Shown here: piece after piece, positions 8,502 to 63,651 of the stretch | How the letters are laid out: every line of letters begins with the position of its first letter | How positions within the stretch are numbered: position 1 is the first letter of the stretch | Source of the DNA: a virus | Length of the DNA stretch: 64,000 nt | Virus record (IMG/VR): IMGVR_UViG_3300025120_010288 | Location: 1-64,000 of that record | Direction: 5' to 3' (one strand) | Translations under genes and position numbers: made by a program | The notes under the pieces: model-generated | Database searches by the model: none | What the model saw: the letters and a program-made list of their open reading frames with translations, nothing else | What the model was told of the DNA's origin: nothing

Positions 8502-9062
8502 TTGGCATACATGAGACAAGTTATAGATTTAATTGAAGCAAGCACTCGGCCTGCTAAATTAGAAACAACCCCACTTCCATATGCAACAAACGCCCTTGCT
8601 CCAAGCATGAGCCAAGCTACAATTGATTATCATTACGAAAATCTAACCAAAGCATATGCTAAAAACTACAACACAGGCAAAGGCAACAAAGATTTTAATC
8701 GTGCGGGAAGCTATTTGCACAACAAATTTTGGCCACAATTTAAAGCGCCGGCCGGTGCTAATGCTGCCAATCGACCCAAAGGTGCAGTGCTTGAATTAAT
8801 TCAAGCAAACTTTGAAGATTACGAAGATTTTAAACAAGCGTTTAAAGAAGCTGCAACAAGTATAATGGGAAGTGGTTGGGCTTATCTTAGCACAAATGGT
8901 ACTATTAAAACTATTAAAAACCACGCCGTGCGTACTGATATTGCCATGTTAGTTGATATGTGGGAACACAGTTGGGCACTGGATTACCAGCAAGATAAAG
9001 GAAAATATGTAGATAATATTTTCAAAATAATTGACTGGAACGTAATTAACGAAAGACTCTAA
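8502..9062 (+). CDS. Fe/Mn superoxide dismutase with N-terminal extension
   Basis: Converts superoxide to O2 and H2O2. The four metal ligands of the Fe/Mn family align: H44 (IDYHYENL), H73 (YLHNKFW), D152 and H156 (DMWEHSW). The usual second-sphere HH pair after the first ligand is replaced by LT. The SOD fold begins near residue 23 (TPLPYATNAL); the first ~20 residues (AYMRQVIDLIEAS) are extra and resemble T4 capsid-targeting peptides with an L-x-E cleavage site. TTG at 8502 is preferred from GGAG 7 nt upstream; ATG 8511 is possible and keeps the extension. A late-type motif precedes it. No signal peptide. Confidence 0.85.
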   Translation: MAYMRQVIDLIEASTRPAKLETTPLPYATNALAPSMSQATIDYHYENLTKAYAKNYNTGKGNKDFNRAGSYLHNKFWPQFKAPAGANAANRPKGAVLELIQANFEDYEDFKQAFKEAATSIMGSGWAYLSTNGTIKTIKNHAVRTDIAMLVDMWEHSWALDYQQDKGKYVDNIFKIIDWNVINERL

Positions 9063-9064
9063 TA

Positions 9065-9379
9065 TTGCTTATTGAAGAAAGTGCAGTTAAAAAACTCAGC
9101 GAACTAAAAGAACCTGGATTTCCATACTTCAGAATATACGTCGACGGTGGTGGATGTAGTGGATTTCAATATGGGTTTCAGTTTGTTGAGCAAACATATG
9201 ATGACGATAAATTATTTGAATTTGATAATATTACTATTATTGTTGATACTATGAGTTATGCATTTTTAGGGGAAAGCACAGTAGCTTGGGAAGAAGATAT
9301 TATGGGTGCCCAGTTAAAAATAAACAACCCAGGAGTAGCAAGTACGTGCGGATGCGGTGCAAGTTTTTGTCCAAAATAA
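9065..9379 (+). CDS. A-type iron-sulfur carrier (ErpA/IscA/HesB family)
   Basis: Carries Fe-S clusters to target proteins. The three conserved cysteines are C31 (GGGCSGFQY), C95 and C97 (STCGCGASF), and the chain is full length at 104 residues. TTG start, two bases after the SOD stop, with only a weak ribosome site, so probably coupled to SOD. HesB-like proteins occur in marine phages. Here it sits close to FdxA and SOD, a small Fe-S and oxidative-stress group. ErpA versus IscA cannot be decided. Confidence 0.88.
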   Translation: MLIEESAVKKLSELKEPGFPYFRIYVDGGGCSGFQYGFQFVEQTYDDDKLFEFDNITIIVDTMSYAFLGESTVAWEEDIMGAQLKINNPGVASTCGCGASFCPK

Positions 9380-9382
9380 ATC

Positions 9383-9862
9383 ATGCACATCAAATTTTTC
9401 ATTTTATCAACTATATGTGTGCTAACAAGTTGCTCACCAAAAATTAATTCTAATCTTGTGGTTGCCGAACAGTATTTTGGTTACAACGAATACACACATA
9501 GACAAGAATTAAAAACATTCACAGGAATAGACCCAGTTAAAACTGAATGGTGTGCAGCGTTTGTAAATGCAGTGCTAGCAGAACAAGGTATTCTGGGTAG
9601 CAAAAGTGTAAGTGATAATCCTTTAATGGCACGTAGTTTTTTAAACTGGGGAGAAAAAGTTAGCAAAACAGATATACAACCAGGAGATCTTGTTGTGTTT
9701 CCTAGAGGACCAATGCCATGGAATGGGCATGTGGGTTTTTATGTAAGTACTACCAAAAGCAATAGCTGGGTAATACTTGGCGGAAACCAATCAAAACAAG
9801 TAAAGTACGACTTATACATACCTTCAACTGCGATTGCAATACGCAGACAACCTGTACAGTAA
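9383..9862 (+). CDS. Lipoprotein CHAP/NlpC-like peptidoglycan hydrolase (TIGR02594-like)
   Basis: Likely a cysteine amidase or peptidase cutting peptidoglycan. Residues 1-17 form a signal with lipobox LTSC (C17), so export and lipidation are predicted. The catalytic core has EWCAAFVNAVL (nucleophile Cys), a PGDLVVFPRG loop and GHVGFYV with the catalytic His. These match the TIGR02594 group of phage and bacterial wall hydrolases. A lipid-anchored lysis enzyme is unusual; it could act from the periplasm or be virion-associated. It is next to the fibre genes and far from the spanins at 33 kb. Confidence 0.75.
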   Translation: MHIKFFILSTICVLTSCSPKINSNLVVAEQYFGYNEYTHRQELKTFTGIDPVKTEWCAAFVNAVLAEQGILGSKSVSDNPLMARSFLNWGEKVSKTDIQPGDLVVFPRGPMPWNGHVGFYVSTTKSNSWVILGGNQSKQVKYDLYIPSTAIAIRRQPVQ

Positions 9863-10833: not shown

Positions 10834-13800
10834 ATGGCACAACCACAGTGGGTAACATTAGCAGGCAGTTTAGGCACTATTGCCGAAGGGGAATTTTACC
10901 AAATACCTCTTGAAACAACTGTGTCTGATGCATCAACTGTATATTATTCTCTAATTGCAGGACGGTTCCCACAAGGTATTCAAGTTACGGACACTGGCAT
11001 AATTGAAGGCACTCCTAAAAGTGTAGAATATATTCAAGGTGTTCCTACTGAAGTAAGCCGAGATATAACCAGCACATTTACAATACGTGCGTTTACTAAA
11101 AAACCAGATGGTGTTACGACCAATCGAATTAATGATAGAACATTTAACTTAACTGTAAGTGGCCAGGATGTTCCACAGTTTGTAACACCTGCAGGATTAT
11201 TAACTACAAGTTTTGATGCTAAACAGATAAGTTTTCAAATTGAAACATCTGACACTGATACAACAGACACAGTAGTTGTTACCCTACTAAGTGGTACTTT
11301 GCCTCCTGGCTTAACATTAAGTTCAAGTGGATTAATTAGTGGTATTATTACACCAGGTGAAACAACTCTATATACGTTTGTATTAAAAATAAGTGATGGC
11401 AAAGATCAAGACATTAGAAGTTTCAGTATTCAAGTAATTAATCAAGAAGACATGAGTGCTGATACAATTGAATTTACAGCAGACAGTACTGTGATTACAG
11501 CAGATGCAAGCCCAACTCGCACACCAATACTACTAACACCGCCGGGTGATTTAGGAAAGGTAAGAGCAGATAATTATTTTGCTTTTCAGTTTACCAGTAT
11601 TGACTTTGATGGAGACACAGTTGAGTATAGCATTAGTACTGGGAATGGTATTGGATATGACGCCACTGGCAGTTTATACGACGAAGATGGAATTGGATTT
11701 GACAAAGGCGACTTTAGTTTGCCGCCTGGCTTACTAATTGATGATGAAACTGGTTGGTTTTATGGATACATACCCGACCAAGGTGCAACTGAAACCACTT
11801 ATAGATTTTCAGTACAAGTTTACAAAGCAAACAACATTACATTTATCAGCCCACCTGCATTTTTTACTATTACAATTGTTGGGAATATTGACACTGAAGT
11901 TAAATGGTTAACTCCTGCTAATTTAGGAACAATTGATAATGGAGCAATCAGTGAAAAATATGTGCAAGCAATTAACACTGGCGGAAAAGCGTTACAATAC
12001 AAAATTCCAAGCGGCAGTGATAGTAAATTACCGCAAGGATTAGAATTACAAGAAACAGGAATTATTACAGGACGAGTTAGCTTTAACACATTTGCTTTAG
12101 ACAGCGGCACAACTACATTTGATGTAACTCGAGACACACGGTTAGATGTTCCAGTAACAACATTTGATTTAAAGTTTACATTTACAGTAAATGCATACAG
12201 TCCACAAACTCAAGAACTTGGATTAAAAATACAAGTAATTACAATGTCAAACGGCGGCAGTGGTTACACAACCCAACCAATTATTACAATATCTTCTCCA
12301 CCAGATAGCGAAGTTGCAACGCCAGCAACTGCTGGATTGGCTACAATAGTTGATGGAGTGATTACATCAATTGCAGTTGGTAACCCAGGCAGAGGATATA
12401 CAACTCCCCCTCAAATTACTATAACTGGAGGTGGCGGAACTGGAGCTGAAGCAACAGCAAAAATGAGCGAGATTGACCAAGTCAACAGTGTTAGTGTTAA
12501 CAGAATTTTTACAATAACTGTAACAAGAGAATATCAAAGTCCGTATAATGCATTGTATATAAAAGCAATGCCAAATGACACTGATAGAGAGAAGATAACA
12601 GATATTCTACAAAATCAAGATTTAATTCCATATAATTCATTGTATCGACCTGATGATCCAAATTTTGGAATATCAAGCAATTTATCTTATGCACATGCAT
12701 ATGGACTAACTCCAACTACCTATAAAAAATATGTTGAAAGTTTAAATCTAAATCACTATCGAAAAAATCTTACGCTTGGAGAGATTAAAACTGCTAGAGC
12801 ATTGGATGCAAATGGCAATCCTAAGTATGAAGTAGTATATGCTAATATAGTTGACAACTTGGTCAACAACAAAGGTGTCAGTGTAAGCAAAAGTGTTAAA
12901 CTACCGTATAGTGTTACAGTTGATGGGTCACTTACATCTGCAAAAAATAGCTGGGATGCATTTGATCCCAATCCAGAAGTAAAACCATTGCCATTGTCTA
13001 AACAGACTACCGCTTGGTTTGACGCTGCTAAAGATTTAAATATGCTTACAAACATTGGCAGCCAAATGGCAAGGCAATGGGCAGATGATTTACAACCAGG
13101 TGATCCTGCTGCCCCAGGTGGTAGTAAAGCTGGTGAGCCTTTTAACTGGAAACCCGAAAACAGTTGTGATATATATAAAGGTGAACCAGAAAGATATGCA
13201 AGATTTAAGGATCAAATAGCTGCACTAGGTGGTGAAAATGGAAATATTATCTGGAGTTGTTATAACTTAGATGGTGTAGTAAATTGTGCTCCGTTTGCAT
13301 TTTTAGTTGAAGAGGGCGAATATGCATACTTGGTGTGCCGCGGAACATTAAACCTAAATGATAGTAGACTAGACGCATTGGCATTACCAAGTGCTAATCC
13401 AATTGGAGGATTTGGTAAAGGTCTTGTTCATAGTGGATTTAATAGAGCAAGCCTTGGATTGGGAATGGATCCTTTTACTGATCGAATTTTTCCAAATATT
13501 AGAGACGTTGCACAAGGAATATCTATTACCCAGGCGTTAAACAATACTACTAAAAAGAAATTACGATTAGGTGGACACAGTTTAGGTGGTGTTATGACAG
13601 TGTGGACTACTATGTTTGCACAGTACTTAGATAAATTTGATGTTATTGAATCATACCCAAGTGCTGGACCACTACCGGGTAATCCTAATTTTGGACTATG
13701 GTTTAACGCACTTGAAGACAAGTCAGGTAATAAGTTAGGTGATAGTTTTCAAAGACTTACCAACAAGTACGACGGCATTCCAACTGTACCTGGGCCTAAA

Positions 13801-15051
13801 TTTGGATACGCAAATGTTGGTGTTCATGTACAATACGAAGCTGAATATTTAAATGATGAGGGGAAACCTGATGTTGGCGAAAATCATCAAATTTGTTGTG
13901 CGTATGCATATGCACTACAACATCCGTTTGATCCTTACAACAATAAAAATAACGGTGTAGATTGTGTGTTTCCTAAACCAATTCCTAAACCAATTCCACC
14001 ACTGATATTGACAAGTGCTGACAATCTATACAATCCAAACGATCATTATGATAATTTAGTTGCAGAATTAACTGGTGGAGACTTTCCAGAACCACGTACT
14101 TCTCAAATAGTATCAACTGTATACCCAAACAGTTTGTTTAACATGAGAGAACAAGTTATTACTCAAGTTGGGCAAGTTAGTAAACAATTACCTGATTGGA
14201 TGACAAGTACACAGGAAGATGGAAGTGTATTAGGATTTACCCCGGCTTGGATACTTGCATATGTTGAACCTGGTAAAGCTGACGAAATAAAATACTTTTT
14301 AAATCAAGACACCACACTAAATTTAAATCAAATAGACTTTGAAGTAGATCGATATAACTTAGATTTAGGACAAAGTTTTAATTGGAACACTAGTAAACAA
14401 GAATGGATCCCATCTCCACCATTAGTTACAACTTTTGATGAACTTGATAGACCAAGCCAGTTACTGGATCGTGGTGAAGTAACATATGCAACAGTATTGC
14501 CTTATGTTGATGTGCAGTATAAAACACTTGATTATATTGCAGCCCGTGGTGGATTAGATGGGGCAACCACCAAAGCAGAAATTAATGGAAGTATTATAAT
14601 ATTCCAAAGACAAGAAGGTTTTAGTGACCTAACGCCAGACCAAGGATTTACTAAATTTGAAGTACTATACGATGGTGGTAGCCCAACTGGCTATGACAAT
14701 GGATCTTTTGATCAAAGTACAATTCTTACTGACACACAACGATTAGATACCTATAGAGTATCAGTTGCAGATGATAATATTGTAACATTAACACAAGTAA
14801 AAAACATTACCACGTATGATTATGTACTAGTAACAAGTGGTACACGATTTAATAATACACAATTGTACATTCCACCAGTACCAAGTGAGGGCTTGACAAG
14901 GATTAATTGGTCTTTAATACCAGAAGAACCAACTACAGCTACCATTTTTGATGGCAATAGCACCGTGTTCTCTAGCCCTGCAGATACGTGGACCGGTACA
15001 GATATACATGATAAATATCTTGTATTCCCGAAAACGAACATATTAGGATAA
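10834..15051 (+). CDS. Giant fibre/adhesin with Ig-like repeats and embedded class 3 lipase domain
   Basis: 1405 residues. Residues ~1-420 hold about four Ig-like (He_PIG type) repeats marked by LPPGLTLSSSGLISG-like turns (near 50, 155, 295, 400). Residues ~470-540 carry two GxGYTTxPxITI blocks. A complete class 3 lipase core follows: C-R-G-T at 835-838 (family F-R-G-T), HSGF at 866-869, nucleophile elbow GHSLGG with S916, acid D980 (NKYDGIP) and candidate base H1018 (ENHQICC). A proline hinge from two copies of PKPI starts at 1047, and the rest is beta-rich. Likely a virion fibre that binds and perhaps cleaves surface lipid or acylated glycan. It has no export signal. Confidence 0.8.
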   Translation: MAQPQWVTLAGSLGTIAEGEFYQIPLETTVSDASTVYYSLIAGRFPQGIQVTDTGIIEGTPKSVEYIQGVPTEVSRDITSTFTIRAFTKKPDGVTTNRINDRTFNLTVSGQDVPQFVTPAGLLTTSFDAKQISFQIETSDTDTTDTVVVTLLSGTLPPGLTLSSSGLISGIITPGETTLYTFVLKISDGKDQDIRSFSIQVINQEDMSADTIEFTADSTVITADASPTRTPILLTPPGDLGKVRADNYFAFQFTSIDFDGDTVEYSISTGNGIGYDATGSLYDEDGIGFDKGDFSLPPGLLIDDETGWFYGYIPDQGATETTYRFSVQVYKANNITFISPPAFFTITIVGNIDTEVKWLTPANLGTIDNGAISEKYVQAINTGGKALQYKIPSGSDSKLPQGLELQETGIITGRVSFNTFALDSGTTTFDVTRDTRLDVPVTTFDLKFTFTVNAYSPQTQELGLKIQVITMSNGGSGYTTQPIITISSPPDSEVATPATAGLATIVDGVITSIAVGNPGRGYTTPPQITITGGGGTGAEATAKMSEIDQVNSVSVNRIFTITVTREYQSPYNALYIKAMPNDTDREKITDILQNQDLIPYNSLYRPDDPNFGISSNLSYAHAYGLTPTTYKKYVESLNLNHYRKNLTLGEIKTARALDANGNPKYEVVYANIVDNLVNNKGVSVSKSVKLPYSVTVDGSLTSAKNSWDAFDPNPEVKPLPLSKQTTAWFDAAKDLNMLTNIGSQMARQWADDLQPGDPAAPGGSKAGEPFNWKPENSCDIYKGEPERYARFKDQIAALGGENGNIIWSCYNLDGVVNCAPFAFLVEEGEYAYLVCRGTLNLNDSRLDALALPSANPIGGFGKGLVHSGFNRASLGLGMDPFTDRIFPNIRDVAQGISITQALNNTTKKKLRLGGHSLGGVMTVWTTMFAQYLDKFDVIESYPSAGPLPGNPNFGLWFNALEDKSGNKLGDSFQRLTNKYDGIPTVPGPKFGYANVGVHVQYEAEYLNDEGKPDVGENHQICCAYAYALQHPFDPYNNKNNGVDCVFPKPIPKPIPPLILTSADNLYNPNDHYDNLVAELTGGDFPEPRTSQIVSTVYPNSLFNMREQVITQVGQVSKQLPDWMTSTQEDGSVLGFTPAWILAYVEPGKADEIKYFLNQDTTLNLNQIDFEVDRYNLDLGQSFNWNTSKQEWIPSPPLVTTFDELDRPSQLLDRGEVTYATVLPYVDVQYKTLDYIAARGGLDGATTKAEINGSIIIFQRQEGFSDLTPDQGFTKFEVLYDGGSPTGYDNGSFDQSTILTDTQRLDTYRVSVADDNIVTLTQVKNITTYDYVLVTSGTRFNNTQLYIPPVPSEGLTRINWSLIPEEPTTATIFDGNSTVFSSPADTWTGTDIHDKYLVFPKTNILG

Positions 15052-23599: not shown

Positions 23600-24366
23600 A
23601 TCTTAGTGTAATACAAAATATTTCTACTGTGGAATACTATCCGTATCCATATGTGATAGTCGAAGATGCATTGCCTAATAAATTATACAATGAACTACAC
23701 AACAGTTTTCCTGACAAATTGTTACTAGAGCAGCCTGCCGAAGATATAGATTATGTTACCGGCAAACCTATTTGTTATAGATATAAAAGCTCAAAAGCCG
23801 CACAAGAACAAGTTATTCCCAATATATGGAAAGATTTTTTTGAATACCATACTAGTGCTGAATATTTTCGAGCATGTGCAAGGCTTTTTGAAAAACCAAT
23901 TATTGAATATTACAGTGCAGAATTTTATGAAAATTTATTAAGTGACCCAGTAGGAGTACGCAAGTTACGTAAAGGACCTTTAGTAACAGATTGTCAGTTT
24001 GTGTTACACGAAGCACTTGGCGAAACCAGCACCACAAAAGTTCCGCATATGGATAATAGTAAAGAAATATACGCCGGTTTACTGTATATGAAACATCATG
24101 ATGATAAAAGCACAGGCGGAGATTTTGTAGTACATGAAGTAGACACAAACAACGATCAATGGTTTAATCCACAAGGTGGTCGTAATGTACTTGACGGGTT
24201 TCATCGTCCATATAATGTGGTACCATATAAACAAAATATGTTTACTATGTTTTTGAATGTGTTTAACAGCATACATAGTGTAACACCAAGGAAAAACGCC
24301 GTTGAACGTAGATATAGCATCAACATCATTGGCGAGTTCAAAGATAAAAAGATGTGGGAACACTAA
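23596..24366 (+). CDS. 2-oxoglutarate/Fe(II)-dependent oxygenase
   Basis: Probably hydroxylates a peptide or small molecule. Iron ligands: the HxD pair in VPHMDNSKE (His and Asp, near residue 153) and the distal His in NSIHSV; the Arg in ERRYSINI would bind 2-oxoglutarate. The core double-stranded beta helix runs from about 130 to 250. Such oxygenases are common accessory genes of marine T4-like phages. Coupled by overlaps on both sides, forming a run with the SGNH-like and sulfotransferase genes. Confidence 0.78.
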   Translation: MNLSVIQNISTVEYYPYPYVIVEDALPNKLYNELHNSFPDKLLLEQPAEDIDYVTGKPICYRYKSSKAAQEQVIPNIWKDFFEYHTSAEYFRACARLFEKPIIEYYSAEFYENLLSDPVGVRKLRKGPLVTDCQFVLHEALGETSTTKVPHMDNSKEIYAGLLYMKHHDDKSTGGDFVVHEVDTNNDQWFNPQGGRNVLDGFHRPYNVVPYKQNMFTMFLNVFNSIHSVTPRKNAVERRYSINIIGEFKDKKMWEH

Positions 24367-25115
24367 TGCCTATTAAAGATGATATTGCAGCAGGATTGAG
24401 AACCAAGCCACCAAGGCTACAAGCAAAAAAATCAAAAGAAACTAAGGATACAGTGAGATTTAATATAACAAGATGGCCTGAATTTAATGTAAACTTTTGG
24501 GCAATTAACAAAAATGCCAGTAGTACTATTATTAATCATTTAATACATGAAGCAACTGGTGTAGATGTTGACTATGAACATCGTTACGGCCAAGAAGGCA
24601 AACGTCTTATTCAAGACAGACGTATTGACAGAGATGAAGCACTTCGCAATCAACATCTTAACTTTGCTATAGTGCGACACCCTCAAGATAGATTTGAAAG
24701 TGCATACAGGCAGTTTAAATTTCGTGACGAGCCCGAGGGGCTTAAGGCTGCACGTAAAGCAAGATTTGATAAAAGCTGGGAACCTCAAGATTTTTTAGAA
24801 TATATTGAACGTAAGTTTGAACTTAGAAAAGATCCTGTTGTTAAAAAATATTCACAACTAAGTGGAAACAAACATTTCTGGAAACAAATGGATTTTATTC
24901 CATTTAAGGTGTTAGATAAAATAGACTACATTGTTAAGTTAGAAGAATTAAATGACAAGTGGCCTTTGAAACTTATAGGACCACCAACATTTATTGCAAA
25001 TTCTACAGAACCACAGCCTTTACCTGACTATGATCTAGAACTTTTAAAAAATCTATACTTGGAAGATTTTTTAACTTTTAATTATACTTTAAAGTTTGGT
25101 ATAGACAAAGAATAA
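24366..25115 (+). CDS. Sulfotransferase (Sulfotransfer_2-like)
   Basis: Transfers sulfate from PAPS. The 5'-phosphosulfate loop is INKNASST (residues 47-54) and the 3'-phosphate motif FAIVRHPQDRFESAY (near 100), both hallmarks of the carbohydrate sulfotransferase family. ATG at 24366 is chosen from the TAATG overlap; a GTG at 24354 is in frame. A lysine/arginine-rich region follows the catalytic half. Its end overlaps the opposing methyltransferase by 27 bp. PAPS could come from the APS-kinase-like protein at 31966 or from the host. Confidence 0.8.
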   Translation: MPIKDDIAAGLRTKPPRLQAKKSKETKDTVRFNITRWPEFNVNFWAINKNASSTIINHLIHEATGVDVDYEHRYGQEGKRLIQDRRIDRDEALRNQHLNFAIVRHPQDRFESAYRQFKFRDEPEGLKAARKARFDKSWEPQDFLEYIERKFELRKDPVVKKYSQLSGNKHFWKQMDFIPFKVLDKIDYIVKLEELNDKWPLKLIGPPTFIANSTEPQPLPDYDLELLKNLYLEDFLTFNYTLKFGIDKE

Positions 25116-27603: not shown

Positions 27604-29115
27604 ATGATTGAATACTTGATCTGGGCAACACTTGGTACTCTTTACGGAATGCTAGTTGGCATTATCCCAATTGCAGGAGTTACTACAGCCCTAATTACAG
27701 TGTTCAGCATGGGTACTTACTTTATGGCCGACCCCTATTTGGGGTTGGTCTTCTTAACTGCTATTGTTGCTAGTTGTGCTAGTGCTGATAGTTACACAAG
27801 TATCCTAACTGGCATACCCGGCGCAAGTACAACAGCAGCTTGCGTTATAGACGGCTACCCAATGGCAAAGAAAGGCCAAGCCGCTAGAGCAATGGGAATA
27901 GCAATTGCAGACAGTACGTTCAACGGTGTTGTGTATGCTGTGTTTGCATTTGCACTATTACCATTTTACGGAAAAATTATTGTATTATTTGGACGCCCAG
28001 AGTTTTTGGGCTTCATGATGATGGCATTGGCCTGTGTAGGCTTTGTTGCAAGTAAGAATGTGTTTACAAGTATTTGTGCAATTATATTTGGACTGTTTTT
28101 AGGTATGATTGGGCAAGATGTTGTGGGCAATCCACGTTATGCATTTGGTTGGGAATATCTAGAAAGTGGCATTGGTATGATTGTGCTACTATCAGGATTG
28201 TTTGGCATACCAGAATTATTAGATGGCTTTAGACGTGGTGCTAAAAGTGCAGCTCCACCAATATCAGATCAGTACTGGACACAAATGCGTCAAGGATTTA
28301 ACGATGCTAGAAAGAATTGGCGAGATATGGTGCGTGGTGGCGCTATAGGATTCGTCACAGGACTACTTCCGGGTGTAGGAGGGGCAGTTGGTGATTTCCT
28401 TGCATATGGAGCAACCAAAGCTGCACACAAAGAAAAAGATCAAGAAGTACCATTCGGAGAAGGTAATCCAGTAGGATTGCTAGGATGTGAAGGAGCCAAC
28501 AATGCACAAAAAGTATCTAGTATGATACCTGCTTGTTTGTTTGGTATTCCAGCAGCACCATTTGCAGCTATGGTCATGGCAATCTGTATGTATTTTGGTA
28601 TGGAAATTGGGCAACCTAGCCTATTAGATGATACACAGTTTACAAACAGTTTATTATTAGGTTACATCTTTGGTACTATTGGTGTTGCATTATTAAGTAT
28701 ATTTTTATACAAATATATTATTAAAATATTAGAAGTGCCATATTGGATTTACGCAACATTTATTTTAACTGTAATTGTTTATGCAAACATGCAATATACA
28801 GGTGGATGGGAAGATTTAGCATTACTTGCTATACTAAGTGCAATTGGTTGTTTCTTAAAATATTACAATGTAAGTCGCCCTGCTATTCTAGTTGCATATG
28901 TTGTGGCATTTAAAATTGATGAATACTTTTGGGGAACATTGCAGTTATATGGATACAAACAATGGAAAGAAGGATTAGCAGCCTGGGCTGACATTAGATG
29001 GCTAGAATTGTTTAGTCCAACTGATCATCCAATCTTTATTGTGTGTATTACTATTAGTGTTGCTATCTTTGTAAATAGCTTAGTAAGAAAAGACAAAGGT
29101 CTTGAATATACATGA
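27604..29115 (+). CDS. TctA-like membrane subunit of a tripartite tricarboxylate transporter
   Basis: Large permease, 503 residues, full length for the family, with about twelve hydrophobic segments. Family blocks are clear: LGTLYGMLVGIIPIAGV at the N-terminus, SILTGIPGASTTAACVIDGYP near 75, and FVTGLLPGVGGAVGDFLAYG near 255, the duplicated GxxPG substrate loops. It lies 15 bp after tctC; the small TctB subunit normally between or near them is missing. It would sit in the host inner membrane and use an ion gradient. Overlaps the amidinotransferase by ATGA. Confidence 0.9.
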   Translation: MIEYLIWATLGTLYGMLVGIIPIAGVTTALITVFSMGTYFMADPYLGLVFLTAIVASCASADSYTSILTGIPGASTTAACVIDGYPMAKKGQAARAMGIAIADSTFNGVVYAVFAFALLPFYGKIIVLFGRPEFLGFMMMALACVGFVASKNVFTSICAIIFGLFLGMIGQDVVGNPRYAFGWEYLESGIGMIVLLSGLFGIPELLDGFRRGAKSAAPPISDQYWTQMRQGFNDARKNWRDMVRGGAIGFVTGLLPGVGGAVGDFLAYGATKAAHKEKDQEVPFGEGNPVGLLGCEGANNAQKVSSMIPACLFGIPAAPFAAMVMAICMYFGMEIGQPSLLDDTQFTNSLLLGYIFGTIGVALLSIFLYKYIIKILEVPYWIYATFILTVIVYANMQYTGGWEDLALLAILSAIGCFLKYYNVSRPAILVAYVVAFKIDEYFWGTLQLYGYKQWKEGLAAWADIRWLELFSPTDHPIFIVCITISVAIFVNSLVRKDKGLEYT

Positions 29116-61375: not shown

Positions 61376-62326
61376 ATGAAAATTGTATATGTTACTGGGT
61401 GTTGTGGATTTATTGGCAGTTATGTTACACAGCATTGTCTGGAATTGGGCTGGCGTGTTATTGGTGTTGACAAGATGACATACGCTAGTAATCCTGATTT
61501 ACTACAAGAATTTACCCAAAATCCTAATTTTAAATTTATACGCAATGATATTAACAATCTTGAAAGATTAATGGACTGTGATTATATCATTAACACAGCG
61601 GCTGAATCGCATGTGGACAACAGTATAGTTGATAGTGATGCATTTATACACAGTAATGTAAACGGTGTTCATCATTTACTCAAACTAATATTACACAAAC
61701 GCCACGCACTAAACATGCCTACATTTTTACATTTTAGTACAGATGAAGTGTATGGCGATATCAGTAGTGGTCAACATTTTGAATTTGACTTACTTAAACC
61801 TAGCAATCCATATAGTGCTAGTAAAGCAAGTGCAGATATGTTAGTGTATGCATGGGGTCGAACATTTAATATTCCTTACGTAATTGTGCGTCCCACCAAC
61901 AATTATGGTATAGGGCAATATGTTGAAAAGTTAATACCTAAAAGTATCAAACATCTTGGCTTAAACAGACCTATACATTTACACGACAACGGAAAACCTG
62001 TTCGAACTTGGTTACATGCTGACGACACTGCAAGGGCTATTACTACAATTATTGAAAGCAATGTTCAGAACGAAATATACAATATAAGTGGAAACACAGA
62101 ACTTCCAAACAAAATAGTAGTTCAAGCGATTATTAATAATTATTTTGATAAAGATTTAACTAATGATTGGGGAAAATATATTGGTCATATAAGCAGGCCT
62201 GGTCAAGACATACGCTATAGTGTTAATGATGACAAGTTAAAAAAATTAGGTTGGGAAGCAACTGCTGACTTTGATGAAGAACTGTATAAAATAACCAATT
62301 ATTACAAGGACAATTTTGTATGGTAG
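61376..62326 (+). CDS. NDP-sugar 4,6-dehydratase (RfbB-like SDR)
   Basis: 316 residues. Rossmann motif GCCGFIGS near residue 9, NTAAESHVDNS, catalytic FSTDEVYGD (Thr-Asp-Glu) near 124 and YSASKAS (Tyr-x3-Lys) near 146. This TDE motif marks dTDP- or CDP-glucose 4,6-dehydratases, which make the 4-keto-6-deoxy sugar needed for deoxyhexoses. Overlaps the next gene by 7 bp, whose product acts on such a sugar. Confidence 0.85.
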   Translation: MKIVYVTGCCGFIGSYVTQHCLELGWRVIGVDKMTYASNPDLLQEFTQNPNFKFIRNDINNLERLMDCDYIINTAAESHVDNSIVDSDAFIHSNVNGVHHLLKLILHKRHALNMPTFLHFSTDEVYGDISSGQHFEFDLLKPSNPYSASKASADMLVYAWGRTFNIPYVIVRPTNNYGIGQYVEKLIPKSIKHLGLNRPIHLHDNGKPVRTWLHADDTARAITTIIESNVQNEIYNISGNTELPNKIVVQAIINNYFDKDLTNDWGKYIGHISRPGQDIRYSVNDDKLKKLGWEATADFDEELYKITNYYKDNFVW

Positions 62327-63651
62327 ATGCCAAACTTGAAAACATATTATCACAAGTAAGTGATTACATTGTTGAAAAATCCAAAAATAAAACCTGGACC
62401 GAAGGAAAAGATCTTGTACATTATGCTGGCACTTATTATGACAGCGAAGAATATGTAGCAGGTGTAAAAAGTTTACTTGGTGGTTGGTTAGCAATGGGCA
62501 TGCAAAGCCGAAAGTTTGAAAAGTTTTTTCCTCCGCAATTTGGCAAACAGTATGGTATCCTAACCAACAGTGGGAGCAGTGCTAATCTGCTTATGATGAG
62601 CAGTTTAACAAGTAAACGCACACAGAATTTTCCCAAGGGTACTAAAGTACTGATGCCTATTGCAGGCTTTCCTACTACCCTAAATCCTACATTACAAGTC
62701 GGATTTAAACCTGTATTTGTAGATATTGAATTAGATACATTAAACATTGATTTGACTCATGCTGAAAAACTTATACGTGAACATGACATAAAAGTTATAA
62801 CATTTGCACATGTACTAGGTAATCCCCCTAACATGGACGATGTAATGACACTAGTTGACAAATATAATTTGGTATTATTAGAAGATTGCTGTGATGCATT
62901 AGGAAGTACATGGCATAACAAACCATTAGGAAGTTTTGGACTAATGGCAAGTTGTAGCTTTTATCCAGCACACCACATGACTATGGGTGAAGGTGGGTTT
63001 GTTGCCACAGCAGATAAATTACAAGAAACTGTTCTCACTAGTTTTAGAGAATGGGGCAGAGGTTGCTATTGCATAGGCCCAGAGGCTAATAAATTAAAAA
63101 ATGGTACATGTGGTAAACGTTTTAGTTGCTGGATCCCAACACTCCCAGATCATGTATTTGATCACAAATATGTATATGATGAAATTGGTTATAACCTAAA
63201 ACCTATTGAACTACAAGCTGCAATGGGTATGTGTCAATTAGAAAAATTGCCTACTATACATGCAAAACGTAGAAAAAACTTTGCACAACTAAGCAAAATA
63301 TACAGCAAATACGAAGAATTTTTTTATATTCCACGTGCCCAGCCAGGTAGTGATCCAAGTTGGTTTGCGTTTCCTTTAACTATACGCCCTGGGGCTCCGT
63401 TTACTAGAAGTGAGTATGTAGATTTTTTAGAAACAAATCTAATACAAACTCGTCCTTATTTTGCAGGAAACATTATGTTACAACCAGCCTACAGTCATTT
63501 AATGAATCCTGTGGATGCTAGAGACAATTATCCTGCAGCAACTCATGCTATGTTAAACACCATGTTTCACGGCACAAGCCCTGTTATAACAGCAGAACAA
63601 ATTCAATACATTGGAAAAGTAGCTGATCAATTTTTAGGAAAGTATAGATGA
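62320..63651 (+). CDS. CDP-4-keto-6-deoxyhexose C3-dehydrase E1-like enzyme (RfbH/DdhC)
   Basis: 443 residues of the DegT aminotransferase fold, but the PLP lysine is replaced by His: YPAHHMTMGEGG with H218, as in RfbH/E1. A [2Fe-2S] site with the E1 pattern is present: C191-x57-C249-x1-C251, then C264 (x12 instead of the usual x7; a five-residue insertion). With an E3-type reductase it removes the C3 hydroxyl to give 3,6-dideoxy sugars. No reductase gene is seen; the FdxA or host enzymes might donate electrons. Overlaps its dehydratase and the gene at the right edge. Confidence 0.85.
   Translation: MVDAKLENILSQVSDYIVEKSKNKTWTEGKDLVHYAGTYYDSEEYVAGVKSLLGGWLAMGMQSRKFEKFFPPQFGKQYGILTNSGSSANLLMMSSLTSKRTQNFPKGTKVLMPIAGFPTTLNPTLQVGFKPVFVDIELDTLNIDLTHAEKLIREHDIKVITFAHVLGNPPNMDDVMTLVDKYNLVLLEDCCDALGSTWHNKPLGSFGLMASCSFYPAHHMTMGEGGFVATADKLQETVLTSFREWGRGCYCIGPEANKLKNGTCGKRFSCWIPTLPDHVFDHKYVYDEIGYNLKPIELQAAMGMCQLEKLPTIHAKRRKNFAQLSKIYSKYEEFFYIPRAQPGSDPSWFAFPLTIRPGAPFTRSEYVDFLETNLIQTRPYFAGNIMLQPAYSHLMNPVDARDNYPAATHAMLNTMFHGTSPVITAEQIQYIGKVADQFLGKYR

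Follow-up and report, generated by a model that had tools for sequence, protein, structure and literature searches.

An Atu_ph07-like jumbo myovirus probably carries, in one of its virion proteins, an active class 3 lipase/esterase that forms an exchangeable cassette and that would cut acyl esters on the host surface at adsorption. The protein of 1405 aa is encoded on the plus strand at 10834..15051 of the window, i.e. the stretch of 64,000 nucleotides analysed here, which belongs to a viral record of 70,856 bp. The fold, the intact catalytic triad, purifying selection and the cassette nature of the domain together with its turnover were computed; the activity of the lipase, the time at which it acts and its place in the virion are inferred.

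The carrier has around 70 homologues on related phage contigs, including gp329 of Atu_ph07 and a protein of Sinorhizobium phage Phosso (XYS97278), which were gathered via the N-terminal region and the neighbouring clamp loader. Conserved segments follow one another in the order A (residues 1-460), B (553-694), C (1093-1202) and often D (1366-1405). In the window, with all features on the plus strand, the N-terminal conserved region (residues 1-456; 10834..12201) contains Ig-like He_PIG repeats (Pfam E 1.8e-16) and is kept in relatives. It is followed by a Gly-rich repeat (residues 463-548; 12220..12477) common to T4-like tail-fibre and virion structural proteins (PHROG 5342/701/17885), which is missing in some relatives, and the gap between A and B varies among them. 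Scaffold segments B (12490..12915) and C (14110..14439) are conserved and form the 5′ and 3′ borders of the lipase cassette (residues 695-1092; 12916..14109), and the conserved segment D lies at the C-terminus (14929..15048). The preliminary description had named the product a giant tail-fibre protein. Its length was given correctly, but the term tail fibre is too loose, as the PHROG 'tail fiber' matches are limited to the Gly-rich repeat; a more fitting name is virion structural protein, encoded in the baseplate/fibre gene cluster.

Pfam Lipase_3 (PF01764) matched residues 833-988 (13330..13797) with an E-value of 1.3e-6 and 28.8 bits against a cut-off of 22, which is the lowest score among the full-length members listed; the family was matched in all six aligned fused modules, at best with 3e-19. 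Across the 70,856-bp record, class 3 lipase matches were confined to the ORF at 10834-15051. The GHSLG elbow, the downstream Asp and His and the R-G-T/S oxyanion motif of the class 3 family are present. The residues listed in the preliminary description were all numbered correctly: C835-R836-G837-T838, of which R-G-T (13339..13347) is the oxyanion-hole motif of the family, H866-S-G-F869 (13429..13440), the nucleophile elbow G914-H-S916-L-G-G (13573..13590) with the codon of the catalytic S916 at 13579-13581, and the catalytic residues D980 (13771..13773) and H1018 (13885..13887). The lipase also lies, as had been stated, between the Ig-like He_PIG repeats on its N-terminal side and a Pro-rich stretch (residues 1047-1056; 13972..14001), the latter not being found in the other aligned fused relatives. 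When the 1405-aa protein was shuffled 20,000 times, GHSLG alone occurred six times and the ordered motif string never recurred, and a chance origin of the motifs was rejected on this basis. GDSL/SGNH esterases and O-antigen deacetylases belong to another hydrolase family than class 3 lipases; here the nucleophile lies in GHSLGG and the Pfam search returned Lipase_3 and no GDSL family. The NCBIfam search yielded no usable name.

The structure of the module was predicted with AlphaFold2 from an alignment of 46 rows, resulting in a mean pLDDT of 82.8 and a pTM of 0.85. A prediction from six sequences only was poor (pLDDT 51.8), and the Foldseek search based on it was not relied on. In the 46-row model, S916 is located at a strand-turn-helix elbow, a strand ends ahead of D980 and a helix starts behind H1018, all three residues lying in blocks with pLDDT values of 92-98. 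As to the structure check proposed in the preliminary description, the model has an alpha/beta hydrolase fold, that of class 3 lipases, with the triad residues at these strand and helix borders. The top 38 Foldseek matches in the PDB are all class 3 lipases or esterases, the best being feruloyl esterase A (FaeA; E 8.6e-12). The PDB matches span triacylglycerol lipases, phospholipases A1 and feruloyl esterase, and EDS1/PAD4 appear as well. TM-scores for the lipases reach only moderate values (0.34-0.47 by query length), which is partly due to long stretches of the module outside the core. Among viral models, class 3 lipases were matched, from large eukaryotic viruses and from some phages. Taken from sequence and model, the domain is a complete and very probably active class 3 lipase/esterase within a virion structural protein, as the preliminary description had proposed.

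None of the residues 836-838 (RGT), S916, D980 and H1018 varies among the six aligned fused modules, nor does the elbow motif; of H-S-G-F, the G-F is kept in fused relatives, three of which have Q, A or K instead of the His. In order to extend the comparison, the 46-row alignment combined the six fused modules and a seventh with 36 free-standing viral class 3 lipase-type proteins and three bacterial lipases. All 46 rows share S916, D980 and H1018, at identities of 16-48% to the module of the window. The Ser and the Asp were part of the scan patterns by which the additional rows were retrieved; the His was not, so that the H1018 column constitutes an independent test. Values of dN/dS between fused lipase modules, named here by their loci, were 0.20 (L099/L100), 0.13 (L099/L082) and 0.14 (L082/L095), and the ratios with the larger dS values are rough since these are near saturation. 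The lipase domain is under purifying selection (dN/dS 0.13-0.2).

A comparison of the carriers revealed that the lipase is a cassette of roughly 400 aa that a minority of them carry inserted between B and C. The gap between B and C comprises 4-64 aa in 67 of the 71 non-redundant proteins with both segments, none of these 67 having a lipase. It comprises 407-465 aa in four other distinct proteins and 398 aa in the window, and every long gap holds the same lipase. With partial proteins included, the lipase was found in seven distinct sequences (window, L082, L094/L095, L099/L184, L100, L101 and L182). The borders are sharp, the cassette beginning after -LPYP/S- (around residue 693) and ending before -TVYPNSL- (around 1095). 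The search for the same fusion in other phages, suggested beforehand, was thus successful, with the same borders on independent contigs. A scan of IMG/VR with the module alignment recovered fused relatives; single-sequence scans of phages and IMG/VR with the window module found nothing, nor did a module-alignment scan of GTDB genomes. Because one genome-pattern scan returned only three bacterial lipases, no cellular donor is named. On the clamp-loader tree, three changes are needed to explain the lipase label, of which the well-supported branches force only one.

The cassette itself is also subject to turnover. The loci L099 and L101 are separated in the clamp-loader tree by end branches of 0.008 and 0.027 (sum about 0.035) and their scaffold segments C are 80% identical, whereas the identity of the two lipases is no more than 40%. 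The cassette was either swapped for a distantly related version or altered by very rapid change, and both would be common in components exposed to a host surface that varies.

The closest relatives of the DNA polymerase are those of the jumbo phages Phosso (49%) and Atu_ph07 (46%), followed by 121Q/PBECO4-type phages, and the lipase-bearing relatives include phage records of 316 kb and 300 kb. By these sequence relationships, the 70,856-bp record is assigned as a fragment of a jumbo myovirus of the wider Atu_ph07-related group. The carrier homologue in Atu_ph07 was identified as gp329 (AUZ95088) by counting genes from published anchors (gp276/277, DNA polymerase; gp288, tail fibre; gp292, ClpA; gp312, clamp loader; gp327, tail fibre). 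According to the Atu_ph07 study, virion proteins cluster in CDS 284-329, among others (PMC6102473). Hence gp329 would be the last gene, at the border, of a virion cluster supported by mass spectrometry, and the position of this border suggests that it was itself detected. By homology with gp329, the 1405-aa protein is presumably part of the virion.

As a mechanism, the Ig-like scaffold would hold the lipase domain outside the particle, where it would hydrolyse acyl esters of the host surface during adsorption by a Ser-Asp-His mechanism, and this hydrolysis may clear or loosen a layer in front of the receptor or the outer membrane. The sequence does not select the substrate, because the fold family spans triacylglycerol lipases, phospholipases A1 and feruloyl esterase. 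In our judgement, acylated surface or matrix glycans account for about half of the expectation, envelope glycerolipids for roughly a third and other substrates for the small remainder. The family membership of phospholipases A1 and triacylglycerol lipases would suit a virion enzyme that acts on the membrane and cuts outer-membrane glycerolipids or lipid A acyl chains, thereby easing tail penetration. We regard this as unlikely, although it is the most plausible of the alternatives: membrane lipids vary little across hosts, yet the cassette is missing in most relatives and is only 40% identical between phages with nearly identical clamp loaders. Compared with membrane lipids, a variable target fits such turnover somewhat better, for instance the acyl groups of surface or matrix glycans. 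A weak further argument is a lid segment without the Asp-Trp common in free-standing relatives, and no specific feature points to lipid A; attack on lipoproteins, also suggested beforehand, is likewise not supported.

Less probable still is a role apart from attack on the host surface, in which the lipase would work after entry, in assembly or in lysis, or would be a pseudoenzyme that binds in adhesion. Class 3 lipase folds without lipase function do exist, as in plant EDS1/PAD4, and jumbo phages carry free-standing lipases too, with one encoded besides the fused lipase in the genome of L094/L095. Against such a role stand the carrier, which is Ig-like and comes from a virion family, the triad and oxyanion motif without variation in every aligned fused copy and the low dN/dS. 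That the fusion was seen here on a single metagenomic contig could also point to an artefact, i.e. a chance motif or a chimeric assembly in which a phage gene was joined to a lipase gene of cellular origin. No stop interrupts the frame, and the independent contigs with the same fusion and borders, among them the 316-kb and 300-kb phage records, refute a chimeric assembly, so that the probability of an artefact is negligible. Host-surface ester hydrolysis by an exchangeable cassette is the reading preferred here.

According to reviews, virion lipases are rare and lack proof (PMC5380687, PMC10621286). In the related jumbo phage XacN1, which has Rak2-like structural genes, the lipase ORF279 was detected in virions (PMC5852040). 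We found ORF279 (BBA65427) to be a class 3 lipase (Lipase_3 E 1.6e-11); it resembles the lipase of the window in its family and in its jumbo-phage origin but is free-standing (about 237 aa), encoded near capsid genes and without a structural carrier. Virion triacylglycerol lipases have been predicted, but not proved by experiment, for phages of Cellulophaga and Pseudomonas (Pires 2016, cited in PMC5380687). These are likewise lipases predicted on the particle, in other phages, and tblastn of a fused module against the phage collection (E 1) showed no similarity to them. Virion-packaged lipases are thus not unprecedented, since XacN1 packages ORF279 and others have been predicted. Phage particles or tail genes also provide ester hydrolases of the GDSL/SGNH esterase and O-antigen deacetylase type, e.g. 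Peru-2 P2_42, the Nickievirus GDSL lipase and those of Vi phages (PMC13320782, PMC12173070, PMC5380687). Outside phages, Aspergillus niger feruloyl esterase A and the Rhizomucor and Thermomyces lipases share the fold and the Ser-Asp-His arrangement; these fungal enzymes are secreted and only about 20% identical, and their substrate is not transferable. The open-licence literature yielded no description of a jumbo-phage structural protein with a fused class 3 lipase, and no class 3 lipase retrieved by pattern, in scans that took in some codon choices, lies in a large structural protein. What is new here is a class 3 lipase that serves as an exchangeable module within a virion protein of a jumbo phage, which extends the idea of virion lipases. 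In the sources covered, the role of virion lipases is untested and one has been detected, in a jumbo phage. Free-standing class 3 lipases are frequent among viral contigs, about 60 of which in IMG/VR (loci L198-L271) encode them, mostly with 200-330 aa.

The homologues in Atu_ph07 and Phosso share with the window the Ig-like repeats, the segments B and C and the location in a jumbo-phage fibre cluster, but their B-C site comprises only about 30 aa and they carry an N-terminal subtilase domain (Peptidase_S8; E about 1e-36) in place of the lipase. The metagenomic homologue L135 (1622-5578) has an N-terminal YHYH domain (PF14240; E 2.4e-22) and neither lipase nor subtilase there. As the subtilase and YHYH domains sit at another site than the lipase, the carrier can accept inserts at more than one position. 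It is conceivable, at slightly less than even chances, that Atu_ph07-like jumbo phages possess a virion carrier with interchangeable enzymes (class 3 lipase, subtilase and others), whose lipase form would open acylated host surfaces beyond the reach of ordinary glycan depolymerases. One carrier with a lipase, with a protease or with nothing, together with two near-identical phages bearing different lipases, provides a natural comparison by which it becomes directly testable what a particle-borne lipase cuts and whether it sets the host range.

Several other genes of the window, all on the plus strand unless given without strand, were recorded. A small lipoprotein-like ORF (9383-9862) just upstream of the fibre-type genes has a signal ending in LTSCS and a CHAP/NlpC-P60 domain, and an iron/manganese superoxide dismutase followed by an A-type iron-sulphur protein (8502-9379) adjoins the virion genes. 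A complete TctA of 503 aa (27604-29115; Pfam E 2.3e-90), the large membrane subunit of a tripartite tricarboxylate transporter, is possibly a phage metabolic gene. Relatives of it, at 24-29% identity, were present in no more than seven records of the phage collection, and several of these records are short or bacterial; no TctB or TctC partner was recognised in the neighbouring genes tested. Moreover, a sulfotransferase family protein (24354-25115), a TylF-type methyltransferase (978-1703), a nucleotide-sugar epimerase (61376-62326, no strand given) and an aminotransferase (62320-63651, likewise) possibly form a glycan-modifying set.
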